Shown here: piece after piece, positions 15,356 to 63,983 of the stretch
Layout of the letters: each line of letters begins with the position of its first letter
How positions within the stretch are numbered: the stretch's first letter is position 1
Origin: Pontederia crassipes
Lineage: Eukaryota; Streptophyta; Magnoliopsida; Commelinales; Pontederiaceae
Assembly (NCBI GenBank): GCA_030549335.1
Contig: CM060187.1
Coordinates: 53,526,203 to 53,590,202, forward strand
Direction: 5' to 3'
Length of the DNA stretch: 64,000 nt
Position numbers and translations under genes: made by a program
Notes under the pieces: generated by a model
Told to the model about the DNA's origin: nothing
The model's database searches: none
The model's input: the letters and a program-made list of their open reading frames with translations, nothing else

Positions 15356-18300
15356 TGTTGATGTGTGTGGAATTATATACCTTGTACTTAAAATTATGAA
15401 AGAAAATAAATGAGAAAAAGGAAGAATGAAAATCTGTGATAGAAGCGGAGGGCTTAGGTCGTTAGGGTTAGGGTTTTATATGATGTACACTTTTTTTCTC
15501 ATAGTGAATTTTTCTGACGGCGACCTTCTTTGCCCGTGGATGTTTCTCTCTTGTTCACATTGATCAAGAGAGTTTTATCACGTTATATTCCTGTGTTCAT
15601 CTTCTTTTTCTTTCGTTATTTTAATTATTTATCGATCATCGGTGTTCTATTCCTAACAAACTAGTATCAAAGTCGAGTTTCTTTCCGCGAAGATGACTAC
15701 AACGAAGTTCGACATCGAGAAGTTCGACGGGAATACAAATTTCAATCTGTGGCAAGTTCGGATGCTTGCCATCCTAGTTTAGAATGAATTGAAGAAGACA
15801 CTATCGGGTCAAAGGCCTGATGCCATGGAGGCGTCCATCTGGAAGGAACTTGACGAGAAGGCCATGTATGCGATTCAGCTGTGCTTGACGAATGATGTTC
15901 TTTAGAAAATTCTTACAGAAAAAATGACGGCCGGTCTCTGGACGAAGTTGGAAACTCTGTGTCTAACAAAAATCCTACCGAATCGACTTGTGTTGAAGCA
16001 GCGGATGTACACCCTTCATATGGTTGAAGGTACGTCGATCAAATCGCACATCAATGAGTTCATCGCCCTAATCAATTATTTGAAGAACATAAATACGAAG
16101 GTTGATGATGAAGATCAGGCCCTATTACTTTTTTGTTTTTTGTCATCTTCATATAAAACTTTTATAGAGACGATGATCTACGGTAGGGACAAACTCACGT
16201 TTGAAGATATTAAGGACAAACTGCTGAGCAAAGAAAAGTTGGATAACAAATTGGGATCCAGTAGCAAATCTGATGATCAAGCCCCAGATCTGATTGCAAG
16301 AGACAAACATCAGACAAGAAATTAAAATCAAGATAGATTCAGATCCAAGTCGAAGAACAGAGATAAAGTCTGCAATTATTTTAAGAAGAAGAGTCATATC
16401 AAAGCAGAGTGTTACAAATTACATAATAAGAATAAAAGAATAAACGAGAGCAACGAGAAAGGAAATCTGAAGGTTAATGTTGCAGATGTCAGTGTAGCAA
16501 AAAGTGAGAATGAAGATGTTCTATTGGTAACGACATCAAACAAATCTAGATCATCAAGTGAATGAATTCTCGAATCTGTATGCTCATATCATATGTGTCC
16601 CAATCGAGATTGGTTCTCCATGTACAAATCTGTTGAAGGGAGTCACTCTTATGAGTAATAATGCTGCCTGTAAGACAAGTTGGTATTGGGTCCATCCATA
16701 TTAAGATGCACGATGGGATTGTTAGAACATTATCTGAATTTAGAAATGTTCTAATATGAAGAAGAATCTCATTTCGTTCGATGTTTTAGACTCAAATGGT
16801 TGCAAAGTTATTGAGTCTAATGGAATGAAAATTTTTCGTGGTGCTCTTGTGTTGATGAAAAACCTCAAAATCGATAGCTTGTATGTTCTCCAAGGTTCGA
16901 TTGTAATGGGTTCAACAGTAGTCTCATCTACCTCAGAGGAAGATTACATAAAATTATGACATATACGTTTGGGCCATATGAGTGAGAAGGGCATGCAATT
17001 TCTCAGCAATAAATGTCTTCTTCCTAATGCAAAAGTTGAAAAATTAGAGCTGTGTGAGCATTGTATCTTCGAAAAATAGAAGAGAGTTAGTTTCGGTTCA
17101 GCCATTCATAAGACGAAGGGAACCCTTGATTACATTCATTCAGATTTATGGGTTCCTTCTCAGGTTCCTTCAAAAGGAGAAAATAGGTATTTGCTGACAT
17201 TTATTGATGATTTCTCTAGAAAAGTTTGGGTCTATTTTCTGAAGCATAAATATGATGTATTTGAAACATTCAAGTCATGGAAGACTCTGCTAGAGAAGCA
17301 ATCTAAAAAAGTTGTGAAGAGGTTGATGACTAATAATGGACTAGAATTTTGTAATTCTAGATTCAATGAATTTTGTGAGAAAGAAGGTATTGCAAGGCAT
17401 CATACAATTGTGAGAACTCCACAGCAGAATGAAGTCGCAGAGGGAATGAACAAAACTCTATTAGAGAGAGCTCGATATATGTTGTCAAATGCAGAACTTA
17501 GCAAGGAGTTTTGGGCAGAGGCCGTCAATCTGACATGTCACTTAGTGAATCGATTTCCTCACCGATCCTTAGACTTAAAAATTTCTGAAGAAGTGTGGTC
17601 AGGTAATTCTCCTAATTACTCACATTTAAGAGTTTTTGGTTGCACTGCATATGCATATGTTAATGATGGAAAGCTTGAACCTAGAGTTAGGAAGTGTATA
17701 TTTTTTTTGTTATAAATCTGGTGTTAAATGTTATACATTATGGTGTCTTGAAACAAAAAAATTCATAATCAGTAGAGATGTTACTTTTGATGAATCTGTG
17801 ATGCTTCACTCGAGAAAAGATTTGTCTATTATTGATGATACAGAAAAATAGAGGACTTTGGAGAAGGTGGAGTTAGAACTTTCAAGTTCTTCTAATAAAA
17901 AGAATGATGCTCCTTATACTCTTGAAATTCGTTCATCACCTCAAGTTCAGCAGTAATACATGATAGCTCGTGATAGACCGACGAGGGAAATAAAAACACC
18001 TCAAAGGCTCGGGTTTGATGATCTGGTGGCTTATGCATTAAGTGTTGCTGAAGATACTGAGTTACCTGATCCTTCCTCTTATTCTGAAGCTATTCAAAGT
18101 TCTGATTGTAATAAGTGGTTAATAGCAATATAAGAGAAAATAAAATCTTTATAGAAGAATGACACTTGGGATCTTATAAAATAATCAGTGAATAAGAAAA
18201 TTGTTGGCTGCAAATGGGTGTTCAAGAAGAAAGAATGAATCAATAATGAAGAGACAAAGTACAAAGCAAGATTGGTGACAAAAGGTTATAGTCAAATGGC

Positions 18301-19986
18301 GGGTGTTGATTTTCATGATGTGTTCTCTTCAGTTATGAAATATACTTCTATTCGTACTTCGTTTGCTATTGTTGCTTTGCAGAATATTAAATTTGAGCAG
18401 TTAGATGTTAAAACTGCATTCTTACATAACGATTTAGAAGAATATATATATATATATATGGACAAGTCAGAGGATTTTCATGTTGAAGGTAGAGAAGATC
18501 AAGTTTACCATTTGAAAAAGTCCTTGTATGGACTTAAACAATCATCTCGGCAGCAGTATAAAATGTTTGATTCATTCATACTGAGTATTGGTTTTGCTAG
18601 AAGCAAGTATGATAATTGTGTCTATTTGAATCAACTTGCCGATGGTTTATTCATCTATTTGTTGCTCTATGTTGATATGTTAATTGCAGTGAAAGACATA
18701 TCTGAAATTAAATTTTGAAAAATAAGTTAAGTTCTGAATTTGAGACGAAGGATTTTGAAGTAACAAAGAAGATTTTGGGTTTCTAGAGATAGAAGTGCAA
18801 GAAGGCTTTTTCTGTCTCAGCAAAAGTATATTGAAAAAGTCTTGAAGCGTTTTGGAATGCAGAATGTTAAGACTGTCAGTACACCGATTGTTGCACATTT
18901 TAAACTCTCAACTTCATGTTCACCACAATCTGATGAAGACAAAAGGTATATGTCAAAATTCCTTACGGTAGTGCAGTTGGTAGAATTATGTATGCAATGG
19001 TTTGCACTCGTCCAGATATATCTCATGTTGTCAGTGTTATTAGTAGATATATGTCTAATTTAGGAAAGAAGCATCGGAAAGCTGTTAAGTGGATATTGAG
19101 GTATTTAAGAGGTACTTCTGATGTATGCTTAAAATTTGGTAGAAATTCACCTGAACTGGTTAGCTATGTTGATTTAGATTTGAAAAAGATCTTGATAAAA
19201 GAATGTCCCTAATTGGTTATGTCTTTACTATTACTGATTGTGCTGTGAGTTGGAAAGCTATTTTGCAGGATACAGTAGCATTATTCATCACTGAAGCTGA
19301 ATACACGACCGTCGCTGAAATTGTAAAGGAAGCTATCTGATTGAGAGAATTAGTTGAGGAACTCACTATGAAGCCGGAAGCTACTGTTATATATTGTGAT
19401 AGTCAGAGTGCAATACATCTTATAAAAGATCAAATGCATCATGAAATGACAAAGCATATTGATGTGAGATATCATTTTGTTCGTGATATTATGGAAAGAC
19501 AAGATGTTCAAGTTCAAAAGAATAGCACTCATAACAATCCAACAGATATGATGACAAAGAGCTTACCTGTCGTCAAGTTTGATTATTGTTTAGACTTGGT
19601 GGACATTCTGCAAAGATCAAGCTAGGCCCACGTGGGCCTTTCGGTTGAGCATTTTTTTAGAGTTTTATAAAATTCAAGTCAAGGTGGAGATTTGTTAATG
19701 TGTTTTGAATTAATACACTATACCCAAAATTATAAAAGAAAAAAATGAGAAAAAGGAAAAATGAGGATATGTGGCGAAAGCGAAGGGCTTGGGCCATTAG
19801 GGTCTTATATGATGTACTCTTTTTTTTGCTTATAGTGAAATTTTTCTGACGGTGTTTTCCTTCGTGGATGTTTCTCTCTTGTTCACATTGATCAAGAAAA
19901 TTTTATCATATTAAATTCCTGTGTTTATTTTCTTTTTCTTTCGTTGTTTTGATTGTTCATCGATCATCGGTGTTCTATTCCCAATA
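15356..19986 (+). mobile_element. TNT1-like Copia LTR retrotransposon relic with both LTRs
   Basis: The left LTR is 15356-15658 and the right LTR is 19693-19986; both begin TGTT(A/G)ATGTGT. A primer-binding-like site follows the left LTR, and a purine-rich AAGGTGGAGATT precedes the right one. Internal order is that of Copia/TNT1-94: gag (about 15.7-16.3 kb), CCHC knuckle (near 16.37-16.43 kb), GAG-pre-integrase (near 16.97-17.09 kb), integrase (about 17.1-17.7 kb), reverse transcriptase (about 18.1-18.7 kb) and RNase H (about 19.0-19.6 kb, with DSQSAIHLIKDQ). It is nearly complete in layout but broken many times. The LTRs differ clearly by eye, roughly 10-15 percent with small gaps, so the insertion is old. 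Flanks are T-rich, so the target duplication (TTTT plus one base) is not informative. Confidence 0.92.
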
Positions 19987-41974: not shown

Positions 41975-44900
41975 CTACTCATTTGTACTGTCAAAGCTAC
42001 CTGCTGCATTTGTGCGCCTTCTCTCTCTCCAATTTTCGCCCCATACTTTGGCCTCTGCAATGGCACGCTCTCGAATGAGATCACGGTTGACGTTCCTTGG
42101 AGAGTCTCTAGCCCTGCCCGCATGGATTGGGCTATCCAATTGAGATTCAGTCTCCAAATCCAATCCCCACTTACGACCGGAGCCACCACCAGAACCACCT
42201 CTGCTTATATCTGCACCTGAGCCTGCACCCTTCATCGGATCCCTGTGCCTGAAGTCAGGAGAATTTCTGTGCGGTGAGCTGACAGCATATTGATGGTCAG
42301 AGACACTCCTAGTCCTTGGTGTGGATGGTCCAACCCTGTTACTCCTTTCAGCAGCTGCATTTGGATCATAAATTTGTGAAGCCAAATATGAAAGTGCTGT
42401 TACAACGTCTCCTATGAGAGGCCTGGTTGCTGCTTGTTCCTGCAAACACATTGCTGCAACCGCTAGAGCTTGATATAGACCTCTCATTGGGTAATGACCC
42501 TGCAGTAACGGATCAGCCATTTTGGGGAACTTCCTTCGGTCTTTAAACAATGGCCGAGCCTGTAAAGGAGATCAACGAGAGAGCATGTGTATTCAGAACA
42601 TGATACATTTGGAATGTGAGGATAACAAACTGTAGATTTAGCTTGGCCCGACTTCTTACTTCTGGAATATAATAAAAAAACTAGTTTCCGAGGGGCATAT
42701 TGAGACCTACGAAATTACACATTTGGAATGTGAAGTTTAGAAAAGTTGAGCTTCAGTTTTGCACAACTTACTTCTACATCTAGAATATAATAAAAAAAGT
42801 GGAATTTCTGAAGATCATATCGAGACCCATGATGAGTATAGCAAATTTGTATTTAAATCGTTTCCTACATAATTTGAGAACTACAATTGAAGAAAAGAAT
42901 AAAATTATAAAATCTATAACTTCTCGAACTAATAATAATAATAATAATAATCCTTGCCTTTGTTGTATTAGAAAGCAACTCAAACATGCTAAGTCATAAA
43001 CCAGTGTAAAGTAGATTAACTTGTTAAGGGCTATGAGGCAATATACCCATGCAACGAGATTTTGTTCCCCGGCAGGCCTGGTGTTGTCAATGGCTTTACG
43101 TCCAGTAATTAATTCAAGAAAGACTACACCAAAACTGTAAACATCCGATTTCACAGTTAGCTGCCCAGTCATAGCATATTCAGGAGCGCAGTAACCATAT
43201 GTTCCCATCACTCTTGTTGATACATGAGTCTTGTCACCAACAGGACCAAGCTTTGCAAGCCCAAAGTCTGACAACTTTGGATGGTAGCCGTCGCCAAGTA
43301 AGATATTTGATGATTTGAAATCTCGGTAAATAACCGGAGGGTTTGCCTCATCATGAAGATATTCCAAGCCTTTTGCAGCACCAGCTGCTATTTTCATTCG
43401 CGTGTTCCAGTCCAAGGGTTCTTTATCAGGAGGTACATCTGGTATTAATGGAAAACAAACCACTTATCAGTGGACTACACTTATATACTTCAACATAATC
43501 CAAGAGAAGCTTAAAGTTAATAAAAATGGGGCAACACAGTTTGTTTATTTTGGAAAAAAATGAAGCAAAAAGGATCCTAGCACAAAGACCAATTGACATC
43601 TCATCCTTGTCCAAAAAGGAAGCTAAAAGTTTTCAGTTTCACAACATGCACAACAACAACAACAAAGCCTTATCCCACTAGGTGGGGTCGGCTACATGGA
43701 TCATACGACGCCATTCCGCTCTATTAGTAACATTCGTTGATCCATGTTCATAAGATTCGACATGATTTTATGTTGGCTGTCGGGGCCTAACACAACCCTC
43801 CTCCTTTATCCGGGCTTGGGACCGGCTATAAAATATAGGCGGAGTTACCGGCTATAAAATATAGGCGGAGTTTTTCACAGCATGCACACTTAGCTTAAAA
43901 GGATTGGCATCAATAAAAGGAACCAATTCAAAATAGATGGCCATAGAACATCAGGCAAAAAGCAATTTCAGGAAGCTTGCAAAACCAATGTGAAGCATGC
44001 AATGTGAATAGGGGACAACAGATAACATGCCAAAAACAAAAAGGTTTTCAACAGAAGATTAGCACGCAAAATGTACTATGAAAATGGAAGCCCTTAAAAA
44101 ATTATGAGAATTTGATGTATTGAAATGATAAATGTGCAAAAAATATTCTAAGATGGTTGCATAATGAATACACAGTTTATGCCATTTTCATCAACAAGAT
44201 ATTAATTGTTATATGGGATAAAACAACGTGATAGTCTATACTATGATATTTTGTTGTTTCTTTTAGGAGACTGATATTTTGTTATGATACTTTTTTCATC
44301 TTCCATCAAGAAAATATATTATTAAGATGAAAAAATATCATAACAAGCAATTGGGAGAACTTGTATTGCCTGAACAATATAATTAATGAACTTAAGTGAG
44401 CATAAGACATATACCATGGCTTGAACAAATTAGAGTACAAAGATTCCTGAACATATAAATTGAAATGACTTTCATATCCACTTAAAATGTAGAAATAAAT
44501 ACACATTTTTTTATTTAATCCTTTTTCAAGTCACCCTAATGTAGTTAGCAAATCCATTACAATGTAATGATTCAAGCATGTAAAGAAAGCTAGGCTATAA
44601 CCAAATTTGTATATCAGGGTAAACTGAGATGCCAAGATTAGTCAATTTGGAAGTCTCCTGTCCCTTACTTCTAACTGCGATATCAAATGAAAGGAGAATC
44701 CAAATACCTATCCATATTAAAAAAATGAAAGAGAGGATGCACATGTGCCAAAAATGAATAAGCTATTTGCATATGCAAATTAAATGTGTTGACATGAGAT
44801 AATTCAAGGACAAGTATAACCAAGGTAGTCAAAAACGCGAGTCAACTCGTAGAATCGTACGATTCTACGAGTTCACCCCGGCAAAACGTGTTCGTTTCCA

Positions 44901-59968: not shown

Positions 59969-60131
59969 AGGGCCAACGTTCCTAAGAAGCCATGAAAGCA
60001 GGAGAGCCGTCCACCACCACCCTCCTCCTCCTACCTAAAAAAAGAACGATAACACGAACCAGCCACCCCCTCGCTCTCTATTCCTTCCACCTTCGAGGCC
60101 TCGGCCACCTGCCCCTTCCTCACGCGCGCTC

Positions 60132-62480
60132 ATGGCCGGAGCCATGGAGGCATTTGGCCGCGCCAACTTCCTCCCCTTCGTCTTCATCTTCCTCCTCTCC
60201 GGCTCTTCCCTCGTCCTTCCTTCCGCCGGCCAGAACAACGTCGCAGACTTAATGGCCTTCCTCTCTTGGGGCTTTAGCGAGTTCAATGGAACCGGACGGC
60301 CAGTGCCCTCCGTGGGCGCCCCAGCGCCGGCTCCGGCGCCCAATAGCGGAGGCGATGGAATGAGGGCCGCCGGCAAGGGGCCCAACGACGGCACCAAGAA
60401 TGCATCCATAACCCACAACAACGGAACAAAGACCGCCTTTGCCAACAATGGAACCAGTGCGACGCCAGCAACCCACAACAACGGAACAAAGGTCGTCGTT
60501 GCCAACAATGGAACCAATGCGATGCCAGCATCCCACAACAACGAAACAAAGGACGTCGTTGCCGACAATGGAACCAGTGCGACGCCTGCGGCACACAACA
60601 ACGGAACGAAGGGCGCCGATGATTGCGAGCCCCACAATGGAACCACATTGACCCACAACGATGGGACGAAGGTCGCAGTCGCCAATGATGGAACCGATAC
60701 GGCAGTCACCCACAGCAACGGAACAAAGGTCGCCGAGCTCAAGAATGGAACCATTACAGCAATAACTTACAAGAACGGAACGAAGGTCACGATCGTCGAG
60801 CTTCACAATGGAACGAAGGTTACATTTGTTAAGGACCTAACCAATACAATAGCTTCCCCCACGCATGCAGCGCCGCCCGGCAATGAGACCGTCCTCAACT
60901 CAACTGCGACCGCCATTAATGCTCATGACGACAAATCAAACAAGACTGCGGCGCCCCCGGGCGAACTCGTCTTCAAGAACCCCTTGCTCAAGCCCGCGTA
61001 CCACGCCATCCAGTCGTGGAAGAGCGGCATCGTGTCCGACCCCCACAACTTCACGGGGAACTGGGTGGGCAGCGACGTCTGCGCCTACAACGGTATCGTT
61101 TGTGCTGAGTTGCCCGATGACCCGACCAACGGAACGGCCGTGGCCGGCATCGACTTCAATGGCGCCGACCTGCACGGCGAGTTCCCTATCGACCTCGGCC
61201 TCATGGAGAACATAACCATGATCCACATAAACTCAAATCGATTCACCGGAGCCATCCCCAAAAGCATCCTGAAGCTCAAGAACCTGCACGAGCTAGACCT
61301 GAGCAACAACCACTTCTCCGGGGCCTTCCCCAAGGAGCTACTGGACCTGCCAAAGCTCAAGTATCTTGACCTCCGGTTCAACGATTTCGAGGGGCCGCTG
61401 CCGCCAGAGCTCTTTGACAAAGACCTGGACGCCTTGTTCCTAAACAACAACCGTTTCAACTCGAGCTTGCCGGACAACATCGGCAACTCTAAGGTGTCCG
61501 TCATGGTCTTGGCCAACAACAACTTCCACGGATGCGTGCCGCGAAGCATCGGCAAGATGGCGGCAACGTTGGACGAGATCATTCTGACCAACAACAGCCT
61601 CAACGGGTGCTTGCCGCTGGAGCTCGAGCTACTAGAAAACGTGACTGTCTTGGATCTCAGCAACAACTCCCTCACAGGGGTGCTCCCAAAGGACGCTTTC
61701 AAGAAGCTGGCGAGCTTGGAGGTCCTCAACATAGCGAACAATTCGCTCACCGGCGTCCTGCCCGATAGCGTGTGCAAGCTGAAAAGTCTCACCAACTTCA
61801 CGTACTCGAACAATTACTTCAAGGGCGAGGAGTCGAGTTGCAAAAAGTTGAGGGGAGAACAAGACGTCTTCATTGGTGACATGAACAACTGCTTTCCTGA
61901 CAGACAAGACCAGAGGACCGCAGAGGAGTGCAAGAAGGTGGTGAACCGCCCCATCGATTGCGGTGCATCCAAATGTGGGCATTCGAGCAAGCCATCCTCC
62001 AGTCAGAAGGCTTCTCCAATGCCACCACCTCCTCCTCCATCACCACCTCCTCCGCATGTCAAGGCACCACGTCCCCCGGCCGTATCGCCGCCGCCGCCAC
62101 CACCAAAAGTTCAGTCACACTCGTCCTCTATCAAGACACATCGACCACCGCCACCTCCACCTCCATCCATCTTTCCACCGTCGCCACCGGTGCTCGTCTC
62201 CGAAGTAGAGGCTCCAGTATCGCCACCGGTGCACTCACCACCGCCGCCGCCGATGCATTCGCCACCACCTCCACCTGTTCCATCCGTTTTCTCGCCTCCG
62301 GCACCAGCGCATTCATCGCCACCTCCGGTGATGAGTTCACCATTGTCAGCGCCTCCCCCTCCACCATCAACGGAGCGTTCGTCACCACTTCCCCCACCGC
62401 CTCCAAGTGTGGATGATATCCCAGATGCTGTTGTGTATAGATACGCGTCGCCGCCGCCGCCACAATATCCTGGTTACTAA
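60132..62480 (+). CDS. LRR-extensin (LRX/PEX-like) with N-glycosylation-rich domain
   Basis: One uninterrupted exon of 782 codons, GC-rich. Order of parts: signal peptide (about 1-33); a tract rich in Asn-Gly-Thr (52-272) holding 17 N-X-S/T sequons; the LRX N-terminal cap (NFTGNWVGSDVCAYNGIVC, 306-324); about nine to ten leucine-rich repeats (345-565, for example LHELDLSNNHFSGAFP); a Cys-rich hinge (570-615); and an extensin tail (about 627-782) of SPPPP and related motifs with Tyr residues near the end. LRX proteins sit in the cell wall, where the LRR part binds RALF peptides and the extensin part anchors to the wall. PEX forms act in pollen tubes. These roles are from the family. The Asn-Gly-Thr tract between signal peptide and LRR is not part of a usual LRX. 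Single-exon structure fits the family. The start is chosen because it directly gives the signal peptide. Confidence 0.93.
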   Translation: MAGAMEAFGRANFLPFVFIFLLSGSSLVLPSAGQNNVADLMAFLSWGFSEFNGTGRPVPSVGAPAPAPAPNSGGDGMRAAGKGPNDGTKNASITHNNGTKTAFANNGTSATPATHNNGTKVVVANNGTNAMPASHNNETKDVVADNGTSATPAAHNNGTKGADDCEPHNGTTLTHNDGTKVAVANDGTDTAVTHSNGTKVAELKNGTITAITYKNGTKVTIVELHNGTKVTFVKDLTNTIASPTHAAPPGNETVLNSTATAINAHDDKSNKTAAPPGELVFKNPLLKPAYHAIQSWKSGIVSDPHNFTGNWVGSDVCAYNGIVCAELPDDPTNGTAVAGIDFNGADLHGEFPIDLGLMENITMIHINSNRFTGAIPKSILKLKNLHELDLSNNHFSGAFPKELLDLPKLKYLDLRFNDFEGPLPPELFDKDLDALFLNNNRFNSSLPDNIGNSKVSVMVLANNNFHGCVPRSIGKMAATLDEIILTNNSLNGCLPLELELLENVTVLDLSNNSLTGVLPKDAFKKLASLEVLNIANNSLTGVLPDSVCKLKSLTNFTYSNNYFKGEESSCKKLRGEQDVFIGDMNNCFPDRQDQRTAEECKKVVNRPIDCGASKCGHSSKPSSSQKASPMPPPPPPSPPPPHVKAPRPPAVSPPPPPPKVQSHSSSIKTHRPPPPPPPSIFPPSPPVLVSEVEAPVSPPVHSPPPPPMHSPPPPPVPSVFSPPAPAHSSPPPVMSSPLSAPPPPPSTERSSPLPPPPPSVDDIPDAVVYRYASPPPPQYPGY
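60384..60815 (+). repeat. Imperfect 60-bp repeat coding for NGT-rich units
   Basis: The DNA repeats roughly every 60 bp (two 10-residue half units, such as THNNGTK and ANNGTSA) inside the LRR-extensin gene. Early units are closer to each other than later ones. Confidence 0.8.
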
Positions 62481-63116: not shown

Positions 63117-63983
63117 TAGGGCTGAGCAAACTCGGTATCGGGTCCGGGTCTAAGCGGATCCGGTCCCGACCCGGATTATGCCGGGTCAAAAATTTTTCGA
63201 CCCGGTACCAGACCCGAACTCGGCCAGATCCGGTTCCGGGTCAGGCCCGATAATCCGGGAATGTCATCGGGTTTGAAACTGAGAATTGTAGGGCGGACGC
63301 CGAAGATCCGGCGCCTGCAACTGGATCGGCTCACCTGGGGGCCATTCCGACGTCGAATCTGGCCACTGGCGACCGATCCGGCCGCCAATGGCCAAATTCG
63401 ACCGTCGGATCCGGCGTAAGGCGAATCAGGCACCCCGATCTGGCCGGCTAGTCGCTAAATCCAGCGCCTGACGGTCGGATCGACCGCCAAGCCCAGATCC
63501 AGCGCCTGGCGGCCGGATCAGGCCGGCCAGGCGCCTGACGGTCGGATCGGCCGCCAGGTGCCAGATCCGACGCCTGGCAACTGGATCCGGCCGGTCCCGG
63601 CTGCCAGGGGCCGGATCACAAAGCTTGTGGCGATCGAGTAGAGAGAGAGAGGTCGGTCGGAGTGGCGGAGTCATCGTCGTTGGCTCGCTGTCGCTGTCGC
63701 CATCGCCGGGAGAGAGAGAGGGAGAGGGCGAGAGACGAAGAGAGAGATGGGAGGGAGAGGGCGTGAGAGTCTGAGAGTGAGACGGAGAGAGAGATGGGAG
63801 AGAGAAAATGAGAGGATGAAATGAAAAAATAACGTGGAATGAGTTTATATATTGAACAAGTAACCCGAGTCGGGTCCGGGTCGGGTATTGTGATGGCAAA
63901 CCCGGTCCTGACCCGAGACCCGCCGAGTTTTCTCTCATTTGGACCCGATTCCGGTCCGGATCTGACCGCCGTGCTCAGCCCTA
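63117..63983. mobile_element. hAT-type element, GC-rich, near right edge
   Basis: It starts TAGGGCTGAGCA and ends with the inverse TGCTCAGCCCTA. Flanks ATCGCCGA (63109-63116) and GTCGCCGA (63984-63991) are an 8-bp target duplication with one change. The ends carry GGGTCCGGGTC-type motifs in opposite orientation. The middle has repeated CGGATC and GCCAGGCGCC-like blocks (63430-63610) and a GAGAGA region. No transposase is seen. Its termini resemble those of the element at 55261-55730. Confidence 0.82.

Follow-up and report, generated by a model that had tools for sequence, protein, structure and literature searches.

An LRX gene whose enlarged N-terminal domain carries a repeated, sequon-rich tract

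Introduction

Can the N terminus of an LRX protein be enlarged into a densely N-glycosylated arm? The question is raised by one gene in a 64,000-nucleotide stretch of DNA (the whole stretch that was analysed, hereafter the window), in which a sequence-only reading had noticed a tract crowded with N-X-S/T sites (sequons) ahead of a leucine-rich repeat (LRR) domain, at a place where, on that reading, the usual LRX protein has only a short N terminus. As described in PMC7357788, LRX proteins consist of a signal peptide, an N-terminal (NT) domain of unknown function, the LRR domain, a Cys-rich hinge and an extensin tail, and LRX1 without its NT domain did not rescue lrx1 lrx2 and rescued lrx1 inconsistently. 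According to PMC12759080, RALF peptides are bound by the LRR and the resulting complexes compact de-esterified pectin, with the extensin tail serving as the anchor of the protein. Since an NT domain is already described in LRX proteins, the arm is to be seen as an enlarged known region and not as a wholly new part.

Results

Gene layout and assignment to LRX

The open reading frame at 60132-62480 (+) encodes 782 amino acids plus a stop codon in one frame without interruption, and its product ends in YRYASPPPPQYPGY. Its layout is as follows.

60132..62480, + strand: LRX gene, a single open reading frame (open frame; LRR_8 E 1.7e-21)
60132..60230, + strand: signal-peptide-like start, residues 1-33 (hydropathy; hydrophobic core at about residues 11-30)
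60231..60962, + strand: enlarged NT domain, residues 34-277, 17 sequons (without significant Pfam or PDB match)
60963..61991, + strand: LRX-type LRR and Cys-rich linker, residues 278-620, 9 sequons (Pfam and PDB matches)
61992..62477, + strand: extensin tail, residues 621-782 (composition and motif scan)

The placement of the tract ahead of the LRR held, in that it lies between the signal-peptide-like start and the LRR, within an NT domain of 244 residues. The extensin tail has 70 Pro among its 162 residues, six Ser-Pro3+ runs, and one Tyr-X-Tyr motif, YRY at 769-771. LRR_8, LRR_1 and LRRNT_2 exceeded their Pfam cut-offs. In phmmer searches against the PDB the best match was LRX2 (6qxp, E 9e-115), with LRX8 (6qwn and 6tme) at E ~1e-109, each in one stretch, which agrees with the LRX-type identity claimed from the sequence alone. 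The next chain, the receptor kinase GSO1, reached E 1.4e-109 as the sum of four stretches; because the LRX match runs in one stretch and the linker cysteines are shared with LRX2 and LRX8, LRX was preferred over GSO1. The domain order and the LRX-type sequence match together led us to assign the gene to LRX, an assignment judged on architecture and sequence. A tblastn search of the window for a second LRX copy recovered the gene itself only.

The window protein was compared with the two solved relatives. Arabidopsis LRX2, the root-hair LRX of the LRX1/LRX2 pair, has the same domain order as the window protein, and its LRR and Cys-rich linker align with residues 266-621 at 51.6% identity over 353 residues. 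For Arabidopsis LRX8/PEX1, a pollen LRX, the LRR and linker show 49.9% identity over 337 residues. The two identities are nearly equal and do not assign the window gene to the pollen PEX clade or to a vegetative class. The LRX LRR domain is given as 11 repeats in PMC7357788. The aligned part has 6 sequons in LRX2 and 10 in the window protein, with 11 and 10 Cys, respectively; LRX8 has 3 sequons in the 337 amino acids of its aligned part, so that the LRR of the window protein is the richer. Ahead of the point aligned with residue 278, the solved chains hold only 16 (LRX2) and 35 (LRX8) residues, and neither has a comparable tract. When a tract-deleted construct was compared with the solved LRX proteins, the alignment started at residue 278 and residues 34-60 were unmatched.

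The aligned part holds 11 Cys common to LRX2 and LRX8, and the window protein keeps 10 of them, including all six of the linker (Cys 548, 570, 587, 600, 610 and 615), each of which aligns with a Cys in both relatives. The Cys of the NRFCG motif, common to both solved proteins and not known as a defining feature of LRX, is absent, and one Cys lies in the NT domain.

61245..61247, + strand: Thr372, in place of the NRFCG Cys of LRX2 and LRX8 (alignment)
60624..60626, + strand: Cys165, the sole Cys of the NT domain (residue scan)

With Cys165 added to the 10 kept Cys, the count is 11, as in the aligned part of either relative. LRX dimers are reportedly disulfide-linked. PMC12759080 states that the LRR domain forms dimers.

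The tract might have been intronic, part of a broken gene, or a mis-assembled repeat, and mobile-element remains are indeed present in the window. However, the frame is unbroken from the leader through the tract and the LRR to the extensin tail, the listed repeat spacings are all multiples of three, and the LRR shares about 50% identity with LRX2 and LRX8 along its length and keeps 10 of 11 Cys. We therefore regard an artefact of this kind as very improbable. The frame of the tract itself has no stop in 195 codons, and the remaining five frames have 3 to 8 each.

Sequon enrichment in the NT domain

The figure of 17 N-X-S/T sites (X not P) in residues 52-272 (60285-60947) proved exact: 16 are N-x-T and one is N-x-S. 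For N-glycosylation, N-x-T is better used than N-x-S. Sequon density was judged against composition, the other frames of the window, and the two solved relatives. In 20000 shuffles of residues 52-272 with the same composition, the mean was 5.84 and the maximum 16; none reached 17, which rules out a chance origin of the excess. The densest 100-residue stretch of the tract held 9 sequons and the runner-up elsewhere in the window held 3, in a comparison of 63 stop-to-stop stretches of at least 100 amino acids from all six frames, those of equal strand, frame and length being counted once.

The enrichment was not uniform along the protein. The repeat part (residues 83-233) has 13 sequons against 4.84 expected (P 0.0001), and when one unit was taken together with the non-repeat C-terminal part, 6 were present against 2.46 expected (P 0.013). 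Ahead of the array, residues 34-82 have 1 sequon against 0.36 expected (P 0.32) and thus no enrichment. Residues 234-277 have 3 against 0.97 expected (P 0.046).

60882..60947, + strand: three sequons beyond the repeat array, NET 251, NST 256 and NKT 270 (sequon scan)

The LRR (residues 278-620) has 9 sequons against 3.97 expected by composition (P 0.0096). Neither residues 234-277 nor the LRR belongs to the array, and their sequon excess favours real glycosylation. The whole LRX protein has 26 sequons. The predicted sites given for N-glycosylated plant wall and membrane proteins in PMC9738366 are 8 for AtXYL1, 8 for KOR1 and 10 for EFR; 26 in one LRX would be high beside these surveyed plant examples.

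The tract is hydrophilic and nearly neutral in charge, with 14 K+R and 16 D+E among 195 residues. A further feature lies shortly after the leader.

60318..60341, + strand: APAPAPAP run, residues 63-70 (AP at 63, 65, 67 and 69)

We take this run to resemble an arabinogalactan-type glycomodule, and given its presence the arm might bear O-glycans as well.

Growth of the array by duplication

Growth of the domain by 60-bp duplication, as had been proposed, was evident in the DNA. Tandem Repeats Finder reported period 60, 3.4 copies and 87% matches at 60410-60612, and a repeat search found a 29-nt core seven times at spacings of 60, 60, 60, 60, 57 and 57. Since the DNA repeats at 60 and then 57 bp through seven units, we conclude that the tract expanded by duplication.

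60410..60612, + strand: 60-bp tandem repeat where the array is most uniform (Tandem Repeats Finder, 3.4 copies)
60414..60830, + strand: units U1-U7, 19-21 residues each, residues 95-233 (repeat search and unit alignment)

Each of U1-U7 has two [N/D]-[G/E]-T motifs, and 12 of the 17 sequons lie inside the units. The 15 array motifs are spaced 8-12 residues apart, mostly 9 to 11. Pairwise identity is 83-88% among U1-U3 and 58-76% for every other unit pair (58-71% among U4-U7). Part of the sequon total is owed to copy number.

The same array could have grown neutrally. Slippage or unequal crossing over would then have enlarged a weakly constrained linker containing NGT, and the number of sequons would be a by-product; some sites may be glycosylated, with no selection for a dense arm. 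The sequons of U1-U3 fit such growth, since at 83-88% identity they are recent copies. The rest of the array fits less well, for U4, U6 and U7 keep all six of their sequons although U4-U7 are so diverged from one another, and the sequon excess extends beyond the array into residues 234-277 and the LRR.

An antisense open reading frame of 239 amino acids, 60035-60754 (-), runs over the repeat tract and is itself repetitive. It was rejected as a gene, no Pfam family being listed for it, and is probably an incidental product of the repeats.

Conservation of the motif within the array

Comparison of the units with one another gave a means of asking what in the motif has been kept. The Thr is invariant in 15/15 array motifs. 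In the Thr codon of the 14 half-unit motifs, 64 of the 91 pairs differ synonymously and none (0/91) non-synonymously, which argues against neutral growth. The sequon, in comparison, is kept in 12 of the 15 motifs and lost in three, each time by Asp for Asn. Three DGT motifs were located by the motif scan.

60387..60395, + strand: DGT at residue 86, array-like, not a sequon
60660..60668, + strand: DGT at residue 177, array motif, not a sequon
60687..60695, + strand: DGT at residue 186, array motif, not a sequon

U5 is without either sequon, having lost them or never had them. DGT, rather than NGT, may be the ancestral state. The motif Gly is retained in 14/15 and the Lys after the first motif in 7/7, although neither residue is required for a sequon; the Lys column and the second Gly column show no amino-acid changes, fewer than the sequon Asn columns. 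In NET at residue 137 the sequon is intact and the NG/DG turn is broken. Residues between the array motifs vary freely in the unit alignment. What these results show to be conserved is [N/D]-G-T, plus a K following the first motif of each unit, and not the sequon alone. Drift of NGT away from the sequon had been named in advance as evidence against the arm; within the array it is seen as the Asp of 3/15 motifs, and it stops short of the Thr.

Tests specific for the sequon gave borderline results, with P from 0.016 to 0.21. As the cleanest internal control, the sequon Asn, changed in 2/14, was set beside the adjacent non-sequon Asn, changed in 6/14; the difference is not significant (Fisher P 0.21). 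Of the 19 usable columns, the four sequon columns were among those with the fewest changes, as only 61 of 3876 four-column sets equalled them (P 0.016). The alignment behind this value was a manual one fixed on the motifs, a design that itself brings the second halves of U4 and U7 into register, and the repeats are not independent. The first ten codons, free of gaps in 7/7 units, were simulated under a simple neutral model with transitions and transversions in equal shares; sequons are kept in 6/7 against a simulated mean of 3.6 (P 0.054) and Thr in 7/7 against 5.1 (P 0.093). These values, the DGT motifs, the state of U5 and the free variation between motifs are all in keeping with neutral growth, which, set against the points raised above, we consider a serious possibility, if a doubtful one.

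Searches for a fold of the arm

The NT domain gave no significant match to a known domain in Pfam or the PDB. The sole Pfam match listed at E <= 10 was Tcp10_C (E 0.94; 9.6 bits, cut-off 36), in a listing where few matches with E above about 0.1 survive the HMMER filters. The NT domain, the repeat part, the C-terminal units and a unit profile were each compared with the PDB; the best E values were 1.1, 0.28 and, for the unit profile, 1.3, and one search gave no match. With Tcp10_C far under its cut-off and nothing in the PDB below E 0.28, the match is a lead only. In a search for relatives, the collections of prokaryote and viral contigs gave 17 and 1 pattern matches, none of which was confirmed, as expected of such collections.

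The lead nevertheless suggests another view of the motif. NG and DG both favour turns, and [N/D]-G-T-K-V could form a hairpin turn and a short strand every 9-11 residues, giving an open beta-meander, above all in U5-U7, similar to the TCP domain of CPAP; the turn would then be what is conserved, and the sequons would be secondary. The better retention of NG/DG (14/15) than of the sequon (12/15) and the Lys after Thr in all seven units accord with this view. So do U5-U7: their mean beta propensity (1.042) is the top value among five segments, and the charge-hydropathy line puts them with folded sequences. According to PMC3776556, Tcp10_C forms a meander that stands free, with PDG often making its hairpin turns, and the CPAP TCP domain (Tcp10_C, G-box) resembles the tract in its Asp/Asn-Gly turn motifs at regular short spacing. 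It differs from the tract in belonging to a centriole protein that is not secreted, and the tract has no significant profile match to it. Moreover, beta propensity is low in U1-U4, which the line puts with disordered sequences; the line deserves little weight, because the extensin tail also falls on its folded side and it thus discriminates poorly. NET at 137 retains the sequon at the expense of the turn. Considering also the search results, we judge a turn-based beta repeat unlikely.

A bolder extension of the same analogy can be drawn, although it is scarcely credible at present. The arm would be a free-standing Asn-Gly-turn beta-meander with most turns glycosylated, fused to the RALF-binding LRR; as the CPAP TCP domain recognises a proline-rich motif, the arm might pair with extensin tails and so couple LRX molecules. 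The loss of the shared Cys at position 372, together with the lone Cys165, would then shift a possible intermolecular disulfide into the arm.

Other features of the window

The window has a G+C content of 35.7% and looks like plant nuclear DNA. Located 3' of the gene, at 63117-63983, is an 867-bp element with perfect 12-bp inverted ends (TAGGGCTGAGCA / TGCTCAGCCCTA), flanked by 8 bp matching at 7/8 positions (ATCGCCGA / GTCGCCGA); its interior has a 68-bp repeat (63464-63594) and is rich in GA at 63710-63805. We take it to be a non-autonomous hAT-type element. At 17080-18718 (+), an integrase core (E 1.4e-13) and RVT_2 (E 2.5e-36) were found in separate stretches, presumably remains of Ty1-copia type, judging by these families. 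An exon-like stop-to-stop stretch at 42783-43463 (-) matches Pkinase (E 4.1e-23), is followed by AT-rich intron-like sequence, and seems to us reminiscent of a receptor-like cytoplasmic kinase. An Rfam scan of the window gave no match at gathering scores.

Discussion

We favour, with about even confidence, the reading that the gene encodes an LRX whose NT domain has expanded into a probably N-glycosylated spacer. The N-glycan arm put forward in the sequence-only reading is supported in part by the sequon excess, by the three sequons just outside the repeats and by the excess in the LRR; what did not stand is the sequon as the unit of conservation, since Asp replaces Asn in 3/15 motifs and Gly and Lys are equally kept. 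Glycosylation of the arm is thus plausible and partly supported by sequence statistics.

On the preferred reading, the protein would enter the ER, where oligosaccharyltransferase would glycosylate many of the 17 sequons, nearly all being of the N-x-T type. For a secreted, hydrophilic and near-neutral tract with closely placed N-x-T, many occupied sites and a spacer role would be expected. At the N-terminal edge of the predicted RALF-binding LRR the tract would form a spacer, bulky and soluble, and the extensin tail would anchor the protein in the wall. The most likely effect would be on how far the LRX-RALF-pectin assembly reaches and on how hydrated and crowded it is, with no new binding activity.

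No title or abstract opening among the matches listed from an open-access library described an LRX with such an arm. According to PMC7357788 the NT domain is needed for full LRX1 function, in a role given as unknown, and the window gene would be a natural test case. Should glycans occupy its sequons, the protein would be densely N-glycosylated at one end and have an O-glycosylated extensin at the other, and an arm of this length, full of sequons, could show what the NT domain contributes to RALF binding and wall compaction.
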